Shown here piece after piece: positions 11,148 through 61,987 of a DNA stretch of 64,000 nucleotides; position 1 is the stretch's first letter, and the number at the start of each line of letters is the position of its first letter. Source of the DNA: Proteiniphilum sp. (GTDB taxonomy: Bacteria > Bacteroidota > Bacteroidia > Bacteroidales > Dysgonomonadaceae); assembly GCA_018433945.1 (NCBI GenBank), contig JAHDQF010000022.1, positions 38,156-102,155 on the forward strand. The letters run 5' to 3'. The translations under genes were made by a program, and so were the position numbers. The notes beneath the pieces are model-generated. The model ran no database searches and was not told the DNA's origin. It saw only the letters and a list, made by a program, of their open reading frames with translations.

Positions 11148-11167
11148 GGTAGGTGATTAAAAAGAAA

Positions 11168-11236
11168 TGGTTGTCTCACGACAACCAATCTTCATTGTTA
11201 ACCTTAAATCTAATACCATGAAAAACACGTAACAAA
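11168..11236 (+). other. hairpin plus truncated leader-like sequence
   Basis: A perfect 8-bp hairpin (TGGTTGTC at 11168-11175 with GACAACCA at 11180-11187) is followed by AACCTTAAATCTAATACC and then ATG AAA AAC ACG TAA. This looks like the 5' leader and first codons of a gene whose body is gone. The hairpin may also end the plsC transcript. Similar leaders seem familiar from Bacteroidales envelope-protein genes, but I could not check this. Confidence 0.35.
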
Positions 11237-17819: not shown

Positions 17820-17902
17820 TTGGTTTTTGGTTCCTCGTTGGTTCTGGATCCTGGTCCCCAAACCTCAAACTTACGAACCATGAACCGCGAACGTCAAACC
17901 TA
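17820..17902. repeat. degenerate heptad array F (metA leader)
   Basis: The sequence reads with a 7-base period: CCAAACC, TCAAACT, TACGAAC, CATGAAC, CGCGAAC, GTCAAAC and so on, with diverged units before it. It fills the gap between the pyrI stop and the metA start. Two CAAAnnTA words (minus-strand -7 elements) are embedded in it. Confidence 0.6.
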
Positions 17903-18355
17903 GATCAATTCAATCTCCTCTTTCCTGATCTTCAGCTCACAGTAGTGGCACTGCAGCTCCACCATCTCCTTGTCGATCACATGAAACCGGGTCTTCATCG
18001 GTTCGTTGTTGGTGATGCACTTTGGGTTGTTGCAGCGGACGATCTCGATGATCTCGTCGGGCAGCACCACTTTCTTCTTCTCCACCACCTCAAAATTGCG
18101 GATGATGTTGAGGTTCACGTTGGGTGCCACCAGGGCAATCCGGTTGATCTCATCCTCACGGAAGAATTTGTCGGAGACCTTGATGATGCCTTTAGATCCC
18201 ATCTTGCTGCTTTTGAGGTTGTTGCCTATGGTGACGCGGTGGTTCAGTTTTTGCAGATGCAAGAGCGATACCACCTTGAAGACTGCCGACGTGGGGATAT
18301 GATCGATCGCTGTACCGTTTTCAAGAGCGGCAACCTGCAATTCTTTTCTCATCAT
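17900..18355 (-). CDS. pyrI: aspartate carbamoyltransferase regulatory subunit
   Basis: This 151-residue regulatory chain binds nucleotide effectors and joins PyrB trimers. The N-terminal allosteric domain starts [18 protein letters not shown]. The C-terminal zinc domain has Cys108, Cys113, Cys136 and Cys139 (RCNNPKC and QCHYC). Two adjacent ATG codons (18355, 18352) are equally possible starts. It follows pyrB by 20 bases and is surely cotranscribed. Confidence 0.96.
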
Positions 18356-32991: not shown

Positions 32992-34449
32992 TTATTTCTT
33001 CATTTTGATGCGTGCCTGCAGCTCCCAGGTTCTGATGCTGTCTTTGTAGAAGTTGAGGCCGTTCATCTTCACGATATCGAGCGAGGCGTCGCTATTGTCT
33101 TCCCAGCGGCGGCAGAGATACAGTACATCGTAAATACGTCCTATCTGATAACGACGCGAGATGTTCAGCCCGAGGGCATAATCCTCGCCGTAGCTGGTGT
33201 TGGGCACCTTGATCTCGCGCAGTACGGGCGTGTAGAAGGCGCGGGGTGCACCCAGTCCGTTGATGCGCAGCGCATTGTTCCTCCCGTTATCGGGTGTCCA
33301 CTCCCGGTGGTCGATGATACCCGGTGGAATCATCTCCATATCGAAGTTGGTCATCTGATAGGTTCCCACCACCATGGCACAGTTCTGTGCATAGAAGGCA
33401 TCGACGATCTTTTGCAGTGTGTCTTCGCCGCTGTAGATGTCGTCGCTGTCGAGCTGCACGGCGAACTTCCCGCATTGGGGGTGATGCACTGCCATGTTCC
33501 AGCAGCCGCCGATGCCCAGGTCGTCTCTCTCCGGAACGATATGGATCAGTCGTTCGTCATTTTTGAACTCCGCGATAAACTCCGTGGTACCGTCGGTAGA
33601 GTGATTATCCACCACGATCAGGTTGAAGGGGAAACTGGTTTTCTGACGCAGGACGGAAGAGATGGCATCCCGGATGGTCTTGATACGGTTGCGCACCGGG
33701 ATGATCACCGATGCTTCGTAGGTGAAGTCACCCTTATCGAACGCAATGGGTTCGAAAGTGGGTTCCAGCCAGGCGCCCACATCCTTCAGATGCTGTGTGC
33801 AGGCCTGCTCCATCTCGAGCTGCACCTGCCGGTTTTTGGGATCGACATAGTCGAATATTTTCTGTCCCGAGGCACGGGTATCTTCCTCTATCTCGGTGTA
33901 GAGGTACTCGTTGATATGCACGAGGGGGTTCTTCTGCGACACCTTGAGCCTGAGGTCGTAGAGGCCGGCAAACGTGAAGTTTTCGCTTTTCATCCTCCCG
34001 GCTGCTTTCTTCAGTGCCTTCGCATTGTAGAGGAGCAGTGAGCCGAAATTGAAGTCATCGCGCAGGCTACCCTCCTGATAGCCGATCACCGGATGGTTTG
34101 TCTTCACGCCGTTGCTGATGGCGTAGTAATCGGCATAGACCATGCCGGCCTGCGTATCTTCCGCGATACGGATCATCCGTTCCAGTGCGAAGTAACCGGG
34201 TCTCAGCACGGTGGGCTTCTGATAGATGAGCGTATAGTCGGCATTCGATTTCTGTGCGATCTTCTTTACCGTGGCGCTGCTATGGAGCGTGTCGATGGTG
34301 ATGTTTTTGCACCCTTTGATCGTTTCTCCGCTATCTTCGGGAGTAAGCAAATAGATCTTGTCTATCGACTCCGATTGTCTGAGCTCTTCCACCGTTTTTC
34401 TGGCCTGCTCCGGTTCCGAGAAAAGGATAAATGCGTTTATTTTTTTCAT
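32992..34449 (-). CDS. glycosyltransferase family 2, two GT-A-like domains
   Basis: This is a 485-residue protein. The second half (~245-400) is a clear GT2 domain: EASVIIPVRNRIKTIRDAISS, LIVVDNHSTDGT and QLDSDDIYSGEDT (the metal-binding DxD). The first ~230 residues also show a nucleotide-sugar-like alpha/beta pattern (FILFSEPEQARKTVEELRQ, AGMVYADYYAISNG) and may be a second, diverged GT-A domain. No signal or membrane segment is seen. It sits in the murein-salvage island 61 bases upstream of the SpoIID-like gene; its acceptor is unknown. Confidence 0.82.
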   Translation of the reverse strand: MKKINAFILFSEPEQARKTVEELRQSESIDKIYLLTPEDSGETIKGCKNITIDTLHSSATVKKIAQKSNADYTLIYQKPTVLRPGYFALERMIRIAEDTQAGMVYADYYAISNGVKTNHPVIGYQEGSLRDDFNFGSLLLYNAKALKKAAGRMKSENFTFAGLYDLRLKVSQKNPLVHINEYLYTEIEEDTRASGQKIFDYVDPKNRQVQLEMEQACTQHLKDVGAWLEPTFEPIAFDKGDFTYEASVIIPVRNRIKTIRDAISSVLRQKTSFPFNLIVVDNHSTDGTTEFIAEFKNDERLIHIVPERDDLGIGGCWNMAVHHPQCGKFAVQLDSDDIYSGEDTLQKIVDAFYAQNCAMVVGTYQMTNFDMEMIPPGIIDHREWTPDNGRNNALRINGLGAPRAFYTPVLREIKVPNTSYGEDYALGLNISRRYQIGRIYDVLYLCRRWEDNSDASLDIVKMNGLNFYKDSIRTWELQARIKMKK

Positions 34450-34546
34450 ACGATAATATTTTATTCTTTTACATTAAGGTCGTATGGAACTCGCGATTAT
34501 CATTTTCCTGTGTGTAATGATGTTCATGCTCGTTTCATACTTTTTT

Positions 34547-34623
34547 TAGCTCTTAGCTTTTAGCTCTTAGCTTTCAGCTTACAACTTACTGCTTACTGCT
34601 TATAGCTTATCGCTTACAGCTTA
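34547..34623. repeat. degenerate heptad array A
   Basis: About eleven units of exactly 7 bases on the plus strand: TCTTAGC, TTTTAGC, TCTTAGC, TTTCAGC, TTACAAC, TTACTGC, TTACTGC, TTATAGC, TTATCGC, TTACAGC, TTATTTC. It fills the gap between the glycosyltransferase start and the amidase gene, and the amidase stop codon lies in its last unit. Confidence 0.8.
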
Positions 34624-37600
34624 TTTCTCCCATGTTTCCAAAATATTTTTCACCAGCCTGTTCCGGTTCTCCTGACCTTTGATGGCCTCAATGGGAAAGC
34701 CCAGGATGCAGCTGTTGTACTTCTCTCCCTGATAGAGGACGCCGGCACTCAGGTTGTTCTCCGTATAGCGGAAGATGGTGAAAGCCTTCTCATCGGCAGG
34801 CTCTATGGCATCGGGATGCTCCACCACGTAGCTTTCGCTGTTCAGTTCATTGTAGTAGCTGTATTTACCCTGAATGGCGGGAAAAGGAGAGGGTACGGCT
34901 TTAATTTGACCGGTAACGGCACCGTTGTTGTTGCGCCATTTATATTTCAGTGTCTCCTGCGCCCACTCCCGGTCCTCTTTTACAGCGTAGCGGTTGTCCC
35001 ATAGGTCGGTACCGACAAACGCACCGCTGACGATGATGTTGCCACCGTTGTAGCAAAAGGTTGTAATCGCCTCCTGCTCTTTTTGGGTAAATGTCTTGAA
35101 GCGGGGCGGTTTTGCTCCCCTGGCTACGCTCCATTCCCGTTGTTTGCCCAGGATCCAGTCAACAGTCTGATAATCGGACAGGTTCACCAGTCCACTCTCC
35201 ACGGCCGATGCTGCGCAGGAGACAAATGAGTAGCCTGTTTCCGCAAAAGCCTGCCCATGTGCCATGGGATAGTCAAAGCTGTTTCCGGCAATCCGCATTG
35301 TCTCATAATTGGCGTTGCTGTCGCCAAATCCCGAAGCGTCATCGTCCATCCAGGGGATGAGGCGTCTAAATTCGTTTTGTTGACCGATAAAATGATGATC
35401 GGCGATGTAAGGCACGCCATTATCGACACTTCCCAAGAATCCGGCGATGCTGTCATCAGAGGCAGTGAAACTAAATGGAGCGGAAACCCTGGTGAATCCG
35501 TTCACGATCAACACTTCTCCCTTTTGGTCTGATTTCCTGCAGAGCGAGAGGGTCTCTGAGGGAAAGCTTTTCCCCCCTTCGTTCATGGCCTCTACCCGGA
35601 AGCTGTAAAGGCTGTCTTTTTGAATTTTTGATTTAAAGCTGTTGTGTTCCACCCTCACGCCATTATCGAAACCGCCCCCGTTGATGCGGGTGTAGACAAT
35701 ATATTGTGTGGGAGCAGCAGAGGGTTCCGAGGGATCGGGCACTGGCTGCCACGAGAGCAGTGCTTCCGTCTCACCGGTGAAACGTGCGGAGAAGTCCTTC
35801 ACCGGCAATGGTTGCACCACATAAGGTCGGTTATATTGGGTGGCAAGAAACTTGAGCATCCCTTTGTAAACGGAACGGCTTACCGTGAAGCGGAAAGTGG
35901 GATCCAGGCCGTAGCGCATGTCGGCGAAGTTCTGGTGGGAGAGCAGCTCCAGCAGCATGGTAGGTACGTTGGGCATCCGCGCTTCGGCATAGGAGCGGTT
36001 CCAGAGTTGGCGGCGTGTCCATTCCGGTTCAAATTGGCGACGAATGTCGCTGACCACCTCCTCCATGACCAGTTCGGAGAGGTCACGCGACGCCCATCTC
36101 GATTTTCCGCTCTCGAAGCGCTGTTTGTTGAAATGGGTCATGTAGATGCCGAGCGTGCCGACGATGGTATCGCCCCAGAAAGTTCCCGCGTCGGAGTGGA
36201 ATGCAAAGGCCATATCCAGTGGAATATTGAGTCCCTTCTCCCTGGGTAGTGCTGAAGATCCTCCCGCCAGCCAGTTGACCCATGCGCCGCGGGAAGCGTA
36301 GTCGTCGGTATAATCGTTTTTACCCTCAGTGCGGATGTAAACCGAATCGGGCACCCCTGCCCACTGCATCCAGTAGCGGGCACCTTCGGTGTAGCGGGGG
36401 TAACCGCTTATTTCGGGGGCGTAGTTTATTTTCGTCGCAAGCGTCTCTTGCTGTACCAGGCTGTCGGAACTTTTCACGTTCTCCTTCTCAAAGCCCTTTG
36501 GGTGGGGCATCCGGGCGATATTTCCCATACCGCCGCCGATTTTTACTGCATCGGCGGTGACAATTTTTCCGCGACGTTGACTTTTGTTGGAGAGGGTGAT
36601 TTTATGGGAAGTTCCCTCCTCAAAATCGAAATAGCCGAGAAAGATCCAGGTGCCGCCCCCCATCTGCTGGTTGACCCTGAAATCGGTTTTGCCACCGGCA
36701 TGATACACGGTGTAGTGTGCGTCGTCGCTGCTGTTCTTCAGGGTCTGGTAGGAGACATAGATCCCATATTTTCCTTTTTCAGGAATATCAGGGTACCATT
36801 CGGCGAAGCTCTCCCGGTCGCGGGTGACGGTTTTGACCTGTCGCGTCGTACCCATCCGGAAAGGATTTTCACCGTCGAGGTAAACCTCTTTTGGGTGGGC
36901 AAAGCCAGGATACGGGGATGTTCTCCATTGCTCTTTTCCGTTTTCCTCCCTGTAGTCAGACCTATCATCGTTGTCAACAATCACCTCCCGCCTGTTGTAA
37001 TCCCTTTCCCGGGGCAGCAACACGTTGGCACCGGCATTCTCCAGCATCGGTACCAGGAAGGGCACCACATAACTCTGTGTGTACAGGTCTTCCACCGTCT
37101 GAAAAAGACGGGCGCGCTGCCATTCCCACCGTCCCAGTTTCTGTTCGTAGTACCATCCATGGCTCTGCCAGAGGGCGATGTGATTGTTTTGCAGTCCTTC
37201 GCTGAAATTTCCGGCGGGAGACGATAAATTGGCGACCAGCGGGGTTTTCACCTTGTGGGCAATCACCCGGTTTTTATCCTTTTGCGTTGTGCGGAAATAA
37301 TTGGGGATCAGGTGACTGATTTCCACGCCGTCGGAGATGACGCTGATCCGGTATTTTTTTTGTGTGACGGGAAGGTGATACCGAACGCTGTCGTAGATTT
37401 GAAATACGGTGTTTTCCCGCATCGGGAGGTACGACAGTGAAAGATTGGTATAAAATTCGATACTCTTTTTCCGTTCATTCAGTGCGATGCTGTCCACTTT
37501 CACCTTACCGGGACGGAGCAGGACCTCCTGATAGATGTTGGTCAATGATTCGTTGAGTTTAAATTTCAGAGAATCCTCTTGAAGATCTTGGGAAAAAGAT

Positions 37601-37629
37601 GGATAGGAGGCAGTCAAAATGATTGCCAT
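34621..37629 (-). CDS. exported N-acetylmuramoyl-L-alanine amidase-like protein with golvesin and FnIII domains
   Basis: This is a 1002-residue protein as read. Parts of an Amidase_3-like fold are split: ALWQSHGWYYEQKLGRWEWQ (His near residue 155) and FLVPMLENAGANVLLPRERD, then after an insertion DMAFAFHSDAG (second His) and LLELLSHQNFADMRYGLDPTF. The insertion (~230-370) looks like a golvesin C-terminal beta-domain. An FnIII domain (~610-700) and a ThuA/GATase-like C-terminal part follow. The first codons give a signal peptide lacking its basic start. ATG 37648 would supply one but is separated by a T11 run that is out of frame. Some databases call relatives xanthan lyase. Confidence 0.75.
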   Translation of the reverse strand: MAIILTASYPSFSQDLQEDSLKFKLNESLTNIYQEVLLRPGKVKVDSIALNERKKSIEFYTNLSLSYLPMRENTVFQIYDSVRYHLPVTQKKYRISVISDGVEISHLIPNYFRTTQKDKNRVIAHKVKTPLVANLSSPAGNFSEGLQNNHIALWQSHGWYYEQKLGRWEWQRARLFQTVEDLYTQSYVVPFLVPMLENAGANVLLPRERDYNRREVIVDNDDRSDYREENGKEQWRTSPYPGFAHPKEVYLDGENPFRMGTTRQVKTVTRDRESFAEWYPDIPEKGKYGIYVSYQTLKNSSDDAHYTVYHAGGKTDFRVNQQMGGGTWIFLGYFDFEEGTSHKITLSNKSQRRGKIVTADAVKIGGGMGNIARMPHPKGFEKENVKSSDSLVQQETLATKINYAPEISGYPRYTEGARYWMQWAGVPDSVYIRTEGKNDYTDDYASRGAWVNWLAGGSSALPREKGLNIPLDMAFAFHSDAGTFWGDTIVGTLGIYMTHFNKQRFESGKSRWASRDLSELVMEEVVSDIRRQFEPEWTRRQLWNRSYAEARMPNVPTMLLELLSHQNFADMRYGLDPTFRFTVSRSVYKGMLKFLATQYNRPYVVQPLPVKDFSARFTGETEALLSWQPVPDPSEPSAAPTQYIVYTRINGGGFDNGVRVEHNSFKSKIQKDSLYSFRVEAMNEGGKSFPSETLSLCRKSDQKGEVLIVNGFTRVSAPFSFTASDDSIAGFLGSVDNGVPYIADHHFIGQQNEFRRLIPWMDDDASGFGDSNANYETMRIAGNSFDYPMAHGQAFAETGYSFVSCAASAVESGLVNLSDYQTVDWILGKQREWSVARGAKPPRFKTFTQKEQEAITTFCYNGGNIIVSGAFVGTDLWDNRYAVKEDREWAQETLKYKWRNNNGAVTGQIKAVPSPFPAIQGKYSYYNELNSESYVVEHPDAIEPADEKAFTIFRYTENNLSAGVLYQGEKYNSCILGFPIEAIKGQENRNRLVKNILETWEK

Positions 37630-39271: not shown

Positions 39272-39337
39272 AGCTATAAGCTATAAGCTATAAGCTATAA
39301 GCTATAAGCTGTAAGCAATAAGCCATAAACCATAAGC
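39272..39337. repeat. heptad array B in the thyA leader
   Basis: About ten tandem 7-base units on the plus strand: TAAGCTA four times nearly perfect, then TAAGCTG, TAAGCAA, TAAGCCA, TAAACCA, TAAGCAT. It lies between the thyA start (39258) and the minus-strand -7 element (39352-39359), so it should be transcribed as leader RNA. Confidence 0.85.
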
Positions 39338-39351
39338 ATTCAGTTATCAGA

Positions 39352-39359
39352 CAAAAATA
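39352..39359 (-). promoter_or_regulatory. -7 element of thyA-folA (TATTTTTG)
   Basis: The plus strand reads CAAAAATA, a minus-strand -7 match. The predicted transcript starts upstream of heptad array B. Confidence 0.55.
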
Positions 39360-39531
39360 ACGTTTTTTTTGCTCAGGACAAGTGAATATTGAAAACTATA
39401 AGAAAATGGATGCACGAAGCAGGCTTTTCTACCCTTAGTGTTAAAACTTTTCTTCCTTTTTATTGTTTTATTGAAATAAAAGTTTTTTTACGTCAGAAAG
39501 GCAAGGATATAAACTTCAAAAAAATAAAAGT

Positions 39532-48376: not shown

Positions 48377-48450
48377 TCTTCAGTAGCTCAGTCGGTTAGA
48401 GCATCTGACTGTTAATCAGAGGGTCGTTGGTTCAAGTCCAACCTGAAGAG
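48377..48450 (+). tRNA. tRNA-Asn (GTT)
   Basis: This is a 74-base cloverleaf: acceptor TCTTCAG/CTGAAGA, D stem GCTC/GAGC, anticodon stem TCTGA/TCAGA with loop CTGTTAA (anticodon GTT at 48411-48413), T stem GTTGG/CCAAC with loop TTCAAGT, and discriminator G. CCA is not encoded. Confidence 0.97.
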
Positions 48451-48482
48451 CAGAGAGGTACAGTTTTCAAGGGTGAATAAAT

Positions 48483-48556
48483 TCTTCAGTAGCTCAGTCG
48501 GTTAGAGCATCTGACTGTTAATCAGAGGGTCGTTGGTTCGAGTCCAACCTGAAGAG
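48483..48556 (+). tRNA. tRNA-Asn (GTT), second copy
   Basis: It is identical to the first copy except for one base in the T loop (TTCGAGT instead of TTCAAGT). It lies 32 bases downstream and is probably in the same transcript, followed by a terminator. Confidence 0.97.
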
Positions 48557-48560
48557 CAGA

Positions 48561-57308: not shown

Positions 57309-57342
57309 TTATAAAAATGAATCAATGACAATTAATAATCAA

Positions 57343-57377
57343 AGCTTACAGCCTATGGCTAACAGCTTACAGCTAAA
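57343..57377. repeat. heptad array C upstream of the S46 peptidase gene
   Basis: Five 7-base units on the plus strand: AGCTTAC, AGCCTAT, GGCTAAC, AGCTTAC, AGCTAAA. It lies between the flippase stop and the ATG at 57385. An in-frame extension upstream would translate the repeat, so the later start is preferred. Confidence 0.75.
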
Positions 57378-57384
57378 CAAACTT

Positions 57385-59511
57385 ATGAAGAAACTTTTTT
57401 TGTCGATCACAATTTTATTTGTGGCATTCACGGCGAGAGCCGATGAAGGAATGTGGCTCCTGAAAGAGCTTAACCGTGAGAATATCGCCCGCATGCAGGA
57501 GTTGGGGTTCACTTTTCCTGCTGATCAACTTTACAGTGAAGAGAATCCCTCACTGAAAGATGCAGTTGTAATTTTTGGCGGTGGATGTACCGGCGTGGCG
57601 GTATCGGGCGAGGGCCTGATCTTCACCAATCATCACTGCGGCTATGGTGCCATCCAGCAGCTGAGTTCCGTGGAGCATGACTACCTGCGCGACGGCTTTG
57701 TAGCTGCCTCTCAGGCGGACGAGCTCAATGCTGACGGACTGACGGTCTCATTTCTCCGGTCGATGGAGGATGTGACAGACCGTATCGTGCCCCATGTGCC
57801 GCAGGTGATGAGCGAGATACAGCGTGAGCTGGCCATCGACTCTATTTCCAACGAACTGATCAGCGAATATGAGAGTGATCCTTTTACACGTGCACGTGTG
57901 GTACCTTTCTTTGCACGCAACAAATATTATGTGGTTCTTTACGATGTTTTCCGTGATGTGCGTCTGGTGGTAGCCCCCCCCTCTTCGGTGGGTAAGTTTG
58001 GCGGTGATACAGACAACTGGATGTGGCCACGCCATACGGGTGACTTCTCCCTGTTCCGTGTCTATGCCAACAAGGAGAACAAACCGGCCAACTACAGTGC
58101 CGGGAATGTGCCCTACCAGCCCAGGTATGTGGTTCCTGTTTCGTTGGCGGGGGTGAACAAAGGAGATTATGCGATGACCGTGGGCTACCCCGGAAGCACA
58201 CAGCGATACCTCTCTTCCTGGGGCATCCGCCAGCGCATGGAGTCAGAGAACAAGCCACGCATCGAGGTGCGGGGTGCCAAGCAGAAGATTTGGTGGGATG
58301 CCATGACGCAGAACGATACCATCCGCATCAAGTATGCCAGCAAGTATGCCGGTAGCTCCAACTACTGGAAAAATTCAATGGGGATGAATGAGGCGTTGAC
58401 CCGCCTGGAGGTGCTACCGGAGAAAGAGACGCTGGAAGCCAGGCTTGCTGAATGGATCAAAAACAATCCGGAACAGAGGCAAAAGTATGACAGTACACTG
58501 ATCACCCTGAGAGATGCTTATACCACTTCCAATGAGATGGCACGTTATACCACCTACTTCCTGGAAACCTTCAACAACGGCATCGAACTGATCAGATTTG
58601 CCAACACCATCCTTCGTTTCGACAATGACGGCACGGAAGAGGAGAAAAAGGCATTCATCAACGACCGCCTCATCGAATCTTACAAGAATTATGAGCCGGC
58701 ACTGGACAAAAAAGTGCTGCCGGTGCTGATGAAGCTTTACGCTGAGCGGGTGCCCAGTGAATATCTTCCCGACATCTATCAAAAAATTGACTCTCTCTTT
58801 GAGGGAGATTATGAGCAGTATGCCGATTGGTTGTTTGCCAACTCTCAGTTCACCTCACTCGAGAAGCTGCTGGAGCTGTTAAAAAACGCGGATACCCAGG
58901 AGCTTATAAAAGATCCTGCCATGGAGCTGGCTTTGTCCACAACCGATATGGGGTACGAGCTGTCGGGGCAGATGATGCCTTATTACGAACAGATCCTGCG
59001 TGCAGAACGCGAATTCATGGCTGCCCTGATGGAGATGGAGAGCGACCGCACCTTTTACCCCGATGCCAATTTCACGCAGCGGATGAGCTATGGCACCATA
59101 GAGGGATACTGGCCACGTGATGCAGTATGGTACGACTACTACACCACCTCTGAGGGGATCCTTGAGAAACAGAAGCCTGGCGATCCCGAGTTCAACGTGC
59201 AGGAAGAGATCCTCGATTTGATCCGTAACGGTGAGTTTGGGCCCTATGATGACAACGAAGGGGTGATGCGTGTCAACTTCCTTTCCACCAATGACATCAC
59301 CGGTGGAAACTCTGGCAGTCCGGTGCTGAATGGCAATGCCGAGCTGATTGGGCTCGCTTTCGATGGTAACTGGGAGTCGCTGAGCGGCGATATCCTCTTC
59401 GAGCCGGAGATGCAGCGCACCATCAGCGTCGATATCCGCTATGTGCTCTTTGTCATCGACAAGGTGATGGGTGCTTCCCATATTCTGGAAGAGCTGACGA
59501 TCGACAAATAA
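57385..59511 (+). CDS. S46 dipeptidyl peptidase, predicted DPP7 type
   Basis: This 708-residue exported serine peptidase releases dipeptides from peptide N-termini in the periplasm. Signal peptide: MKKLFLSITILFVAFTARA. Chymotrypsin-fold triad: His in IFTNHHCGYGA, Asp in FGGDTDNWMWPRHTGD, Ser in TGGNSGSPVLNG. Eighteen residues after the Ser is Gly (LAFDGNWE). In Porphyromonas gingivalis this site is Gly in DPP7 (hydrophobic P1) and Arg in DPP11 (Asp/Glu P1). So DPP7-like specificity is predicted. Confidence 0.93.
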   Translation: MKKLFLSITILFVAFTARADEGMWLLKELNRENIARMQELGFTFPADQLYSEENPSLKDAVVIFGGGCTGVAVSGEGLIFTNHHCGYGAIQQLSSVEHDYLRDGFVAASQADELNADGLTVSFLRSMEDVTDRIVPHVPQVMSEIQRELAIDSISNELISEYESDPFTRARVVPFFARNKYYVVLYDVFRDVRLVVAPPSSVGKFGGDTDNWMWPRHTGDFSLFRVYANKENKPANYSAGNVPYQPRYVVPVSLAGVNKGDYAMTVGYPGSTQRYLSSWGIRQRMESENKPRIEVRGAKQKIWWDAMTQNDTIRIKYASKYAGSSNYWKNSMGMNEALTRLEVLPEKETLEARLAEWIKNNPEQRQKYDSTLITLRDAYTTSNEMARYTTYFLETFNNGIELIRFANTILRFDNDGTEEEKKAFINDRLIESYKNYEPALDKKVLPVLMKLYAERVPSEYLPDIYQKIDSLFEGDYEQYADWLFANSQFTSLEKLLELLKNADTQELIKDPAMELALSTTDMGYELSGQMMPYYEQILRAEREFMAALMEMESDRTFYPDANFTQRMSYGTIEGYWPRDAVWYDYYTTSEGILEKQKPGDPEFNVQEEILDLIRNGEFGPYDDNEGVMRVNFLSTNDITGGNSGSPVLNGNAELIGLAFDGNWESLSGDILFEPEMQRTISVDIRYVLFVIDKVMGASHILEELTIDK

Positions 59512-59610: not shown

Positions 59611-60069
59611 TCAGAAACCCATCAGATCCCGGTCAAATTTCTCATACCGGGGAGGGGAGGGCACGTAGCTCTCATCATCCCACAGGTTGCTGGTGATCAT
59701 CAGGTCGGCACTGTACCGGTTGCAGGCAATGGGTATGTTGTGCAACCGGCATTGCCGGAGCAGCATCATGATATCAGCCTCATGTGGTTGCGGGTTGAGG
59801 TCGTCAATCAGAAACACCGCCAGGTCGATCTCCTTTCGAACCACCATTGCAGCGATCTCTGCATCACCACCCATGGGGCCGGAGTTCATGATGGTAATCT
59901 CGGGATTCACTCCCTGGTTGTTGAGGGCATCCCTTACCAGGCGGCCGGTGGTACCGGTGCAGACCAGGTGATGCTCCGACAGGAAGTCGGAGTTGTAGAT
60001 CACCCATTCCACCATGTCGGCTTTGCGCTGATCATGTGCCACAAGCGCTATCGTCAGTTTTCTTCTCAT
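59611..60069 (-). CDS. mgsA: methylglyoxal synthase
   Basis: This 152-residue enzyme converts dihydroxyacetone phosphate to methylglyoxal and phosphate, a bypass of lower glycolysis. The phosphate-binding CTGTTGRLV, the catalytic Asp69 in SGPMGGDAEIA, and His96/Asp99 in PQPHEADIMML are present. The length equals that of E. coli MgsA. Its leader carries heptad array D, in which a minus-strand -7 candidate (60134-60141) is embedded. Confidence 0.96.
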   Translation of the reverse strand: MRRKLTIALVAHDQRKADMVEWVIYNSDFLSEHHLVCTGTTGRLVRDALNNQGVNPEITIMNSGPMGGDAEIAAMVVRKEIDLAVFLIDDLNPQPHEADIMMLLRQCRLHNIPIACNRYSADLMITSNLWDDESYVPSPPRYEKFDRDLMGF

Positions 60070-60089: not shown

Positions 60090-60145
60090 AGTTATCTCAG
60101 CTCTCAGCTCTCAGCTTTGAACCATGAACTTTACAAACTTACAAA
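60090..60145. repeat. heptad array D (mgsA leader)
   Basis: 7-base units on the plus strand: GTTATCT, CAGCTCT, CAGCTCT, CAGCTTT, GAACCAT, GAACTTT, ACAAACT, TACAAAT. CAAACTTA at 60134-60141 is TAAGTTTG on the minus strand, a -7 match reading toward mgsA. Confidence 0.75.
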
Positions 60146-61897
60146 TTATATCCCCAGTTCCTGCCGGATGGCATTGATCTTATTATTGGCTTCCTCCTCA
60201 GCCTGAGCCAGCTCTTCACGGCTTCGTGCAGATCCTTTCACTTCGATGTAGAACTTGATTTTAGGTTCTGTACCGGATGGACGGATCGACAGTTTCGTGC
60301 CTTCTTCGGTGAAATATTGCAGCACGTTGGAGGTGGTAGGCATCTCCAGAGCTACCTGCTCGTTGCGAATGAAATCGATTGCTTCGAGCCGCGCAAAGTC
60401 TTTGATGAGTGTTACGGGTGAGCTTCCAAGCGTCTCCATGGGATTGCTTCGGAACTTTTTCATCATCGCTTCTATCTCGTCTGCGCCCTCCTTGCCCGTG
60501 CGTACAAGTGAGATCCCCACCTCCTTGGAGTATCCATACTCCAGATAGATATCCTCCAGCAACTGATACATGCTCTTGCCCTTGTCTTTTGCCCAGGCAG
60601 CAATCTCTGCAAACAGAGTACAGGCAGAAACCGAGTCCTTGTCACGGACAAAGTCGCCCGCCAGGAAGCCGTAGCTCTCCTCACCGCCACCGATGTACTT
60701 TTTCACTCCCTCATTCTTGCGGATGATGTCGGCAATCCATTTGAATCCGGTATAACAGTCGAAGAGCTCGATTCCTTTTTTATCGGCGATCGCTCTCACC
60801 AGCTCGGTGGTGACAATGGTTTTCACCACATACTCTTTTCCGGTGAGGAGCCCCAGCTCTTCACGACGGGTCATGATATAATAAAGGTAGATCAGCATGG
60901 TCTGGTTCCCGTTCACCAGGATGAAGTTACCCTCATTGTCGCGGATAGCAGTGCCAATGCGGTCGCCATCAGGGTCGGTGGCCATCACCAACTCAGCATC
61001 TGTTGCGATCGCCTTTTTGATGGCCAGGTCGAGGGCTGCCGGCTCTTCCGGGTTGGGGGAGATCACCGTGGGGAAGTCGCCGCTGATCACATCCTGTTCC
61101 GGTACCCGGATGATGTTGGTGAAACCTATCGCTTTCAGCGCATCAGGCACCAGGGTAATGCTGGTACCATGAATGGGGGTATAGACCATCTTGATGTCAT
61201 GGTGACGGACTATCGCCTCGGGTGAGAGCACCAGCTTCTTCACCTCCTCAATAAATGCTCTGTCCATATCCTTGCCGATGATCTCGATCAGTTCGCTGTT
61301 CCCCTCAAAATGGATCTCATCGACGGAAGAGATGCGATTTACCTCGGCAATGATGTTCTTGTCGTGTGGTGACAGCACCTGGGCGCCATCGTTCCAATAG
61401 GCCTTATAGCCGTTGTATTCCTTGGGATTGTGTGAGGCGGTGATCATGATACCACTCTGGCAACCCAGCTTACGGATGGCATATGAGACCTCTGGCGTGG
61501 GTCGCAGATCCTCAAAGAGGTAAACCTTGATGCCGTTGGCACTGAAGATGCCGGCAGCGATCTCTGCGAACCGGCGGCTGTTGTTACGACAGTCGTGGCC
61601 GATCACCACCCTGATCTCCTCCAGTCCGGGGAACTCTTTCCGCAAGTAGTTGGAGAGACCCTGGGTCGCGGCTCCTACCGTATACTTATTCATCCGGTTG
61701 CTGCCGGCACCCATGATGCCTCGCAAACCGCCTGTGCCAAATTCCAGATCCTTGTAGAAGGCGTCGATCAACGGCCTCTTGTCCTCGTTGATCAGCATCC
61801 GCTCTACCTCAGCTTTCGTTTCCACATCATAGTTTCCATTCAGCCACGACATCGCTTTGTCGGTGACCTGTGCAAGTAATGTTGCTTCTTCTTCCAT
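60146..61897 (-). CDS. phosphoglucomutase/phosphomannomutase
   Basis: This 583-residue alpha-D-phosphohexomutase interconverts hexose-1- and hexose-6-phosphates. The phosphoserine is Ser155 in MITASHNPKEYNGYK, the metal loop is DPDGDRIG (~290-300), the sugar loop is GGGEESYGF, and the phosphate-binding C-terminus is SIRPSGTEPKIKFYIE. The length fits the PGM2-like (YbbT/PgcA) branch. mgsA follows, separated by array D; array E lies in its own leader. Confidence 0.95.
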   Translation of the reverse strand: MEEEATLLAQVTDKAMSWLNGNYDVETKAEVERMLINEDKRPLIDAFYKDLEFGTGGLRGIMGAGSNRMNKYTVGAATQGLSNYLRKEFPGLEEIRVVIGHDCRNNSRRFAEIAAGIFSANGIKVYLFEDLRPTPEVSYAIRKLGCQSGIMITASHNPKEYNGYKAYWNDGAQVLSPHDKNIIAEVNRISSVDEIHFEGNSELIEIIGKDMDRAFIEEVKKLVLSPEAIVRHHDIKMVYTPIHGTSITLVPDALKAIGFTNIIRVPEQDVISGDFPTVISPNPEEPAALDLAIKKAIATDAELVMATDPDGDRIGTAIRDNEGNFILVNGNQTMLIYLYYIMTRREELGLLTGKEYVVKTIVTTELVRAIADKKGIELFDCYTGFKWIADIIRKNEGVKKYIGGGEESYGFLAGDFVRDKDSVSACTLFAEIAAWAKDKGKSMYQLLEDIYLEYGYSKEVGISLVRTGKEGADEIEAMMKKFRSNPMETLGSSPVTLIKDFARLEAIDFIRNEQVALEMPTTSNVLQYFTEEGTKLSIRPSGTEPKIKFYIEVKGSARSREELAQAEEEANNKINAIRQELGI

Positions 61898-61929: not shown

Positions 61930-61987
61930 CAGCTCTCAGCGATCTGCTTTGAACCTTAAACTTCAAACTGAATAACCTACAAACGTA
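61930..61987. repeat. heptad array E (phosphoglucomutase leader)
   Basis: 7-base periodic units on the plus strand: TCAGCTC, TCAGCGA, TCTGCTT, TGAACCT, TAAACTT, CAAACTG, AATAACC, TACAAAC. CAAACGTA at 61980-61987 is TACGTTTG on the minus strand, a -7 match whose transcript would begin with the array. Confidence 0.65.

Follow-up and report, generated by a model that had tools for sequence, protein, structure and literature searches.

Degenerate heptad arrays in the intergenic gaps of a Proteiniphilum genome: preferred 7-nt period, placement between co-directional genes, and turnover between relatives

The analyzed window is a 64,000-nt stretch of a Proteiniphilum draft genome (2.31 Mb in 92 contigs, 92% complete; hereafter, the focal genome). 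At six sites it contains arrays of consecutive 7-base units that drift in sequence, and five of the six sit between co-directional genes (Table 1). The 57343 site falls within the longest ORF (57325-59511); the Dpp7 model begins at residue 21 of this ORF, and therefore the start listed in Table 1 is the likely one. By eye, the succession of units at 61930-61987 resembles that at 60090-60145. The dispersed element adjoining the array at 34546 has an array nearby in 2 of 20 copies examined. The relative G020 contains eight matches to it that span about 95-115 bases, along with shorter ones. By eye, the element extends to a plausible start codon in three of five copies inspected (L370, L371, and L374). 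An Rfam search of 34430-34640 gave no match at the gathering score, the best of four (up to E 10) having E 1.1.

Table 1. Heptad arrays and other elements of the window
Feature	Coordinates	Strand	Description
FopS match (paralogous Bacteroidetes sRNA family, RF04319)	11157-11228	-	79.8 bits (gathering 56)
Degenerate heptad array	17820-17902	-	Units on + strand TTGGTTC-type, then GAACC-type; lag-7 score 13, p 0.0003; flanked by pyrI-like gene (17900-18355) and metA-like gene
Dispersed element, ~100 bp	34440-34546	-	29 matches in focal genome
Heptad array	34546-34623	-	TAAGCNR units, then AGAGCTA-type; lag-7 score 45, p 0.0003; upstream 1002-aa ORF (34621-37629) terminates at the first TAA of the array
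Heptad array	39272-39337	-	thyA 5' leader, GCTTATA on transcribed strand; order -7 element, array, start codon 39258; lag-7 score 47, p 0.0003; TRF 9.4 copies of AGCTATA, score 97
thyA promoter motif AAAAAAAACGTTATTTTTG	39352-39370	-	Followed by leader of 93 nt
thyA	downstream of 39272-39337 array	-	Assigned by NCBIfam
Tandem pair of tRNA-Asn genes	48377-48557
Weak heptad array	57343-57377	+	AGCTTAC vocabulary; lag-7 score 9, p 0.011; 7 nt upstream of likely start 57385 of dpp7-like gene
Heptad array	60090-60145	-	Lag-7 score 18, p 0.0003; between stop of 60146-61897 and start of mgsA-like gene (59611-60069)
Weak heptad array	61930-61987	-	Lag-7 score 10, p 0.004; leader of phosphohexomutase-like gene 60146-61897

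Each site, extended by 10 bases on either side, was compared with 3000 first-order Markov shuffles. Lag-7 periodicity exceeded the shuffles at all six, with p values that are uncorrected for the sites having been picked beforehand by a sequence-only reading of the window. By strength of signal, 34547 and 39272 rank as strong, 60090 and 17820 as fair, and 57343 and 61930 as weak. TRF reported a period of 7 or a multiple of it at 34544-34624, 39272-39337, 57343-57376, and 60095-60116, while 17820-17902 and 61930-61987 are absent from its output for the window. Thus, the six 7-bp-periodic sites proposed by that reading hold up against shuffling, with the qualification that two are weak and two are missed by TRF. 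A scan of the 40 window gaps (6.1 kb, score at least 11) found three lag-7 segments against a shuffled mean of 0.05.

The promoter-leader case is provided by thyA, which was found in 33 of 39 genomes of the genus but not in the relative G027. Among the 30 loci compared, 24 leaders contain a strict promoter motif, an A-run followed by TTATTTTTG or near. A lag-7 array lies downstream of this motif in 7 of the 24, and none was observed in the 200 bp upstream of it (0/24). In the focal genome the array directly follows the conserved -7 element, confirming its proposed position between this element and the start codon. Array-bearing leaders are 52-378 nt long; the array-free ones measure 28-33 nt in 7 of 17 cases and 50-188 nt in the others. 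The units differ: GCTTATA in the focal genome, AGTTCTA in the 313-bp array of G010, TTCTT-type in G015, G021, and G007, and GCTGANN in G017 and G034. The nearest named thyA relatives, with very near records excluded, are from Coprobacter, Paludibacter, and Dysgonomonas. Arrays in the thyA regions of named Paludibacteraceae, Dysgonomonas, Muribaculaceae, Bacteroidaceae, and Pedobacter records suggest that the habit extends beyond the genus. A pattern of four TAAGCNN units is patchy, occurring in 10 of 120 genomes searched as relatives.

In the focal genome, a 21-base TAAGCTA pattern with at most three mismatches has 71 matches per strand (overlapping matches counted apart), and its reversal has none. 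The preference for 7 was also observed in 48 stretches of this genome chosen without regard to arrays (556 kb, of which 54 kb is intergenic), where lag 7 yielded nine intergenic segments versus one shuffled and three coding. The other high intergenic lags were 14 (8), 21 (8), 28 (5), and 11 (6). The intergenic-only placement claimed from the sequence is thus nearly, though not wholly, true. A wider census covered gaps from the focal genome, two genus members sampled deeper, 27 thyA loci of the genus, and 80 named thyA loci; 146 arrays were called, versus 9 in one shuffled set. Period 7 accounts for 76 of them (one of nine in the shuffled set), followed by 8 (19), 11 (8), 22 (7), and 23 (5), while periods 6, 9, 10, and 12 jointly account for five, with two arrays of period 9 and one of period 10. 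Seventeen focal stretches had been picked by a heptad (TAAGC) pattern; without them, periods 7, 8, and 11 comprise 51, 13, and 7 of 109 arrays. The corresponding counts in the unpicked focal stretches alone are 9, 1, and 3 of 24; these stretches lie outside the TAAGC-pattern matches listed and may be TAAGC-poor, so the true share lies in between. Gaps therefore carry a 7-bp excess over shuffled DNA, and its absence, the main refuting outcome named by the sequence-only reading, did not occur. The strict period did not stand: 7 is preferred without being a rule, and, judging by the counts of periods 7, 8, and 11, the octads and 11-mers of the same genome are the same phenomenon. Arrays of 11-bp period and ATTCGGTAGTA type occur at L135:16234-16369 and L083:2136-2192 and score also at 22. 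One of the 19 lag-7 segments of G010 (L256:1-75) starts with a poly-C run that is probably an assembly artefact.

The arrays are unevenly distributed with respect to gene direction. In pooled gaps of 60-400 bp, a length-matched set outside which the divergent thyA gap of G010 falls (the first stretch of this genome had been chosen for its thyA), arrays were found in 53 of 435 co-directional, 3 of 128 divergent, and 0 of 88 convergent gaps (Fisher 0.0006 versus divergent and 0.00005 versus convergent). Without picked stretches the counts are 33/353, 2/104, and 0/73 (Fisher 0.011 and 0.003), and in gaps of any length 62/853, 6/179, and 2/179. In the unpicked focal stretches and the window (9/156, 1/66, and 0/43) the numbers are too few for significance (p 0.29 and 0.21). 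Many arrays span from the upstream stop codon, sometimes providing it, to a few bases before the next start. Within 25 nt of a stop codon lie 23 of 31 focal arrays, versus 18.8 expected (p 0.03); here as elsewhere, genes were called as naive longest ORFs, and distances to starts are approximate. A general link to promoters, as once suggested, is not borne out: besides the predominance of co-directional gaps at the window sites, several other arrays leave hardly any room for a promoter.

Four gaps (gap1-gap4, the first two at L048) were compared across the genus in up to 30 genomes per locus. Lag-7 arrays with differing units occupy gap1 in 2 of 10 genomes, gap2 in 9 of 26, gap3 in 8 of 29, and gap4 in 14 of 25; at gap3, arrays with lag 8 occur in 11 of the 29. 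At all four gaps other species bear heptads or octads of different sequence. The gap next after gap1, array-free in the focal genome, contains no arrays in any of ten genomes and is 37-42 bp long in eight of them. At gap1, the 163 bp of the focal genome correspond to 28 bp in G020 and 23 bp in G027, with flanks 94-97% identical to the focal genome; the array is absent from G020. At gap2, the lengths are 156 bp, 128 bp, and -1, respectively, the G020 array being 28 bp, that is, four units, shorter. The simpler reading would be that the gap1 and gap2 arrays were gained rather than lost. None of six focal arrays with a gap matched in G027 has a lag-7 array there. Gap3 measures 100 bp in the focal genome and 106 bp in G027, the latter without a lag-7 array; gap4 measures 163 versus 60 bp, and two more gaps 171 versus 6 bp (the focal one additionally contains a dispersed element) and 134 versus 11 bp. 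For the L043:15357 array, the search in G027 gave no clear ortholog. This relative is 94-95% identical to the focal genome at L048 and just 79-87% at the other matched loci, and the gap differences there are therefore older. Array lengths change between species, the sole multiple-of-7 difference being the one between-species case at gap2. Because presence, length, and wording vary from relative to relative, the arrays resemble the product of vigorous copying by the genome more than they do a conserved genetic switch. Intergenic spacing in these Bacteroidota can thus shift by more than 100 bp between relatives. Period and placement persist while the unit turns over, so the three are separable, and the orthologous gaps in up to 29 genomes offer a natural experiment on why the 7-nt unit is so frequent among long repeats in bacteria.

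In most arrays, variation is confined to two or three of the seven positions. In the 27 TAAGC-type focal arrays, unit positions 1-5 are 82-95% constant and the last two are variable; neighboring units differ on average by 1.28 of 7. A few arrays, such as L265:18806-18952, are near-perfect. The two most variable positions are adjacent in 22 of 34 arrays, where chance predicts one third (p 0.0002), a result dominated by the focal TAAGC vocabulary; outside it, adjacency was counted by eye in 8 of 13 arrays, two of them via ties (p 0.035). Adjacency was therefore given no weight. Unit likeness within an array is 0.202, compared with 0.110 between arrays and 0.114 (sd 0.009) for units dealt from a common pool. 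Self-repeat at shifts of at least 14 reaches 599, versus 477 in heptad-permuted arrays (sd 18.5; 6.6 sd). Since units are alike within arrays and blocks recur beyond permutation, duplication in cis is indicated. Together with the 28-bp difference at the gap2 array, this block repetition bears out the active copying that had been proposed.

The vocabulary shared across loci is not accounted for by local slippage. With same-locus pairs and picked stretches excluded, unit likeness across loci is 0.119 for arrays within a genome and 0.087 for arrays of different genomes. In 500 label shuffles the value of 0.119 was reached once, and the mean taken per genome, 0.183, three times. An estimate that included pattern-picked focal stretches (12 of 20 in one set and 5 of 20 in another), 0.212 versus 0.083 (shuffled 0.112, sd 0.009), was inflated by them; in the same data, weighting all genomes equally gave 0.179 versus 0.111 (sd 0.034), and leaving out the focal genome gave 0.174 versus 0.095 (sd 0.030). 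Likeness across loci beyond label shuffles favors dispersal in trans, in which loci would seed or copy one another by gene conversion, template switching, or mobile-element or reverse-transcriptase activity and share a pool of units. The presence of TAAGCTG in 22 and TAAGCTA in 19 of the 27 TAAGC-type arrays points in the same direction, as do 37 array pairs with at least 24 bases in common, versus a permuted mean of 17.9 (maximum of 12 permutations, 26). Copying in trans, were it the source of the shared vocabulary, would represent a novel mode of spread for short arrays. However, we observed no long common unit order: the longest string common to two arrays, 34, is within the permuted range of 29-48, and block copying between loci was rejected on this ground. 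Moreover, the likeness within arrays shows that they are not random draws from a pool, and the TAAGC dominance in the focal genome partly reflects how stretches were selected (TAAGC-type arrays make up 23 of 26 where stretches were picked, 3 of 12 where they were not, and 2 of 3 in the window). The RAYT-type transposase (PF01797), present in 6 of 39 genus genomes, was not found in the focal genome at its 92% completeness, and dispersal by RAYT was rejected. Reverse transcriptase (PF00078) occurs in 18 of 39, the focal genome having one partial match at a contig end; it was not found in the array-bearing G006, G028, G033, and G011 or the octad-bearing G002, all incomplete drafts, and was likewise rejected as a means of dispersal. 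Overall, we consider dispersal in trans unlikely.

Another possibility is a leader element acting at the RNA level, with heptads binding a multimeric RNA-binding protein or setting ribosome access downstream, a role suggested in the literature for the TAACTGA repeats discussed below. Arrays within 25 nt of a start codon are in excess in G010 (10 of 12, 5.3 expected) and G015 (4 of 6, 1.5 expected), the thyA array follows the promoter, and all five focal arrays with both arms have TAAGC ahead of GCTTA along transcription. Against this, start proximity is not beyond chance in the focal genome (17 of 31 versus 18.8 expected) or in the named set (5 of 10 versus 5.0 expected). Both unit strands occur in sense, 15 arrays being mostly TAAGC and 8 mostly GCTTA in the transcribed direction; units are not constant among the loci of G010 or, at a given locus, among species; and ATG shows no avoidance in sense (37, versus 15 in antisense). 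Such an element is distinctly improbable. Stop codons in arrays number 412 in sense versus 279 in antisense, with equal array halves (9.5 and 9.2 per 100 nt). Provision of stop codons in all frames is not a general purpose, as the CCAGGAA-type units (L035) contain none.

Folding was evaluated for gaps of 50-250 bp with 20 shuffles each, the array-free sets being subsampled from 236 and 66. The mean z is -0.92 in 42 co-directional lag-7 gaps versus -0.95 in 90 co-directional array-free ones; 50 convergent array-free gaps have -1.82. Intercistronic hairpins of the REP or terminator type, with periodic arms by accident, would fit some arrays with inverted arms that fold well (z -4.35, -3.80, and -2.53 in 3 of 16 folded) and the arms of octad arrays, which by eye appear complementary. 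The equal means nevertheless disfavor such hairpins for the class as a whole, for which a hairpin or terminator role was rejected, and we hold this explanation to be extremely improbable. The octad arrays (L040:3389-3553, L039:1708-1767, and gap3 in the genus) have a TGATGTGA-type 5' arm and a AATCAACA-type 3' arm, and visual inspection of a nonad form in G007 suggests that its two arms vary in concert. Because orientation is mixed, folding is ordinary, and sites are not conserved, a conserved RNA function, the other suggestion made from the sequence, is not supported and is judged unlikely. At the locus of gap1 and gap2, arrays come and go between relatives that share 94-97% identity there, and array units differ by lineage.

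We favor, with a probability of roughly 0.55, expansion in cis, preferentially in 7-nt steps, within transcribed but untranslated gaps, a minisatellite-like process without conserved function at any one site. Successive tandem duplications at the site itself, preferentially of 7 nt and more rarely of 8 or 11, would create and lengthen the tracts, the copying most likely being slipped-strand synthesis or short template switching. Point change followed by re-duplication would produce drift with phase preserved. The tracts, presumably nearly neutral, would be retained mainly in transcribed untranslated DNA, that is, in co-directional gaps, probably transcribed, and in 5' leaders downstream of a promoter. 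We infer the slippage mechanism, as well as the reason for 7. Several observations stand against slippage in cis: (i) like units occur at several loci of one genome; (ii) neutral tracts are expected in convergent gaps too, yet the length-matched set has none there; (iii) a near-constant TAAGC with two varying positions is unlike uniform mutation; (iv) the rarity of periods 9 and 10, but not of 8 and 11, is unpredicted by simple slippage; and (v) the multiple-of-7 length difference is single and species-level.

A dedicated iterative synthesis activity, telomerase-like or based on guided template switching, might instead add 7-nt steps at gaps from a genome-wide unit pool. The constant pentamer would then be an alignment register and the two other positions would be loosely filled; period and register would be set by the machinery, while the unit drifts by lineage. 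We regard this as very improbable. Rounds of transposon insertion and loss that each left behind a target duplication of 7, 8, or 11 bp would produce a constant step whatever the sequence, an idea mentioned in PMC4679880. Some 5-40 cycles at dozens of sites would probably be needed, which makes this scenario scarcely credible.

The role of such arrays had been called undescribed, which was only partly right. Published cases include heptamers that precede start codons (PMC4679880) and, in Xanthomonas and Nostoc, heptamers in intergenic gaps (PMC4692102), and heptamer repeats upstream of starts and between co-directional ORFs are thus known. TAACTGA heptamers were described in marine Beggiatoaceae, cyanobacteria, and five Bacteroidetes (MacGregor 2015, PMC4679880). 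Like the arrays studied here, they are 7-base intergenic direct repeats, many of them immediately upstream of start codons, with a patchy distribution among relatives. According to the same study, some Bacteroidetes gaps hold other heptamers, and the gaps of close relatives are shorter, with no obvious repeats. That system has one fixed, mostly forward unit, whereas here the unit varies along the array, by locus, and by species, both orientations occur, and periods 8 and 11 are found. The focal units are TAAGCNR, TGGTTCY, and others rather than TAACTGA; AACTGAN units make up part of one focal array (L048) and occur in relatives such as G028 and G023. Forward orientation near the start is likewise not the pattern here, orientation being mixed and proximity restricted to G010 and G015.

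The GGGAATC and GGGGATT heptamers in gaps of Xanthomonas and Nostoc (PMC4692102) provide another parallel. In Xanthomonas, as here, the arrays are mostly between same-direction ORFs; they are under-represented between divergent ORFs, and length and sequence vary among relatives. These heptamers are G-rich and quadruplex-forming, with four units preferred, and two relatives have the same genes flanking the majority of their arrays, whereas here presence changes by relative. Units with runs of at least three G were not found in the focal unit lists, some GGGAAGA units being observed in one G010 array. The tandem 7-mers of Calothrix (cited in PMC4692102) are similar in kind and are reported to comprise three fixed units.

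Heptanucleotides were found to be over-represented among long simple sequence repeats, and polymerase slippage with a 7-nt step was proposed (Mrazek et al. 2007, as cited in PMC4679880 and PMC4692102). The arrays described here share the 7-nt preference and, as tandem 7-nt units over-represented in non-coding DNA, agree with that class, except that their copies are not near-perfect. Unlike the simple sequences counted genome-wide in that work, as cited there, they are degenerate, and some unit positions hold steadier than others. In the open-access literature searched, we found no report of arrays that combine a period preference with a unit whose drift is biased by lineage and with gains or losses from one relative to the next. 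Overall, the arrays are real and widespread, ordinary in kind and unusual in degree.
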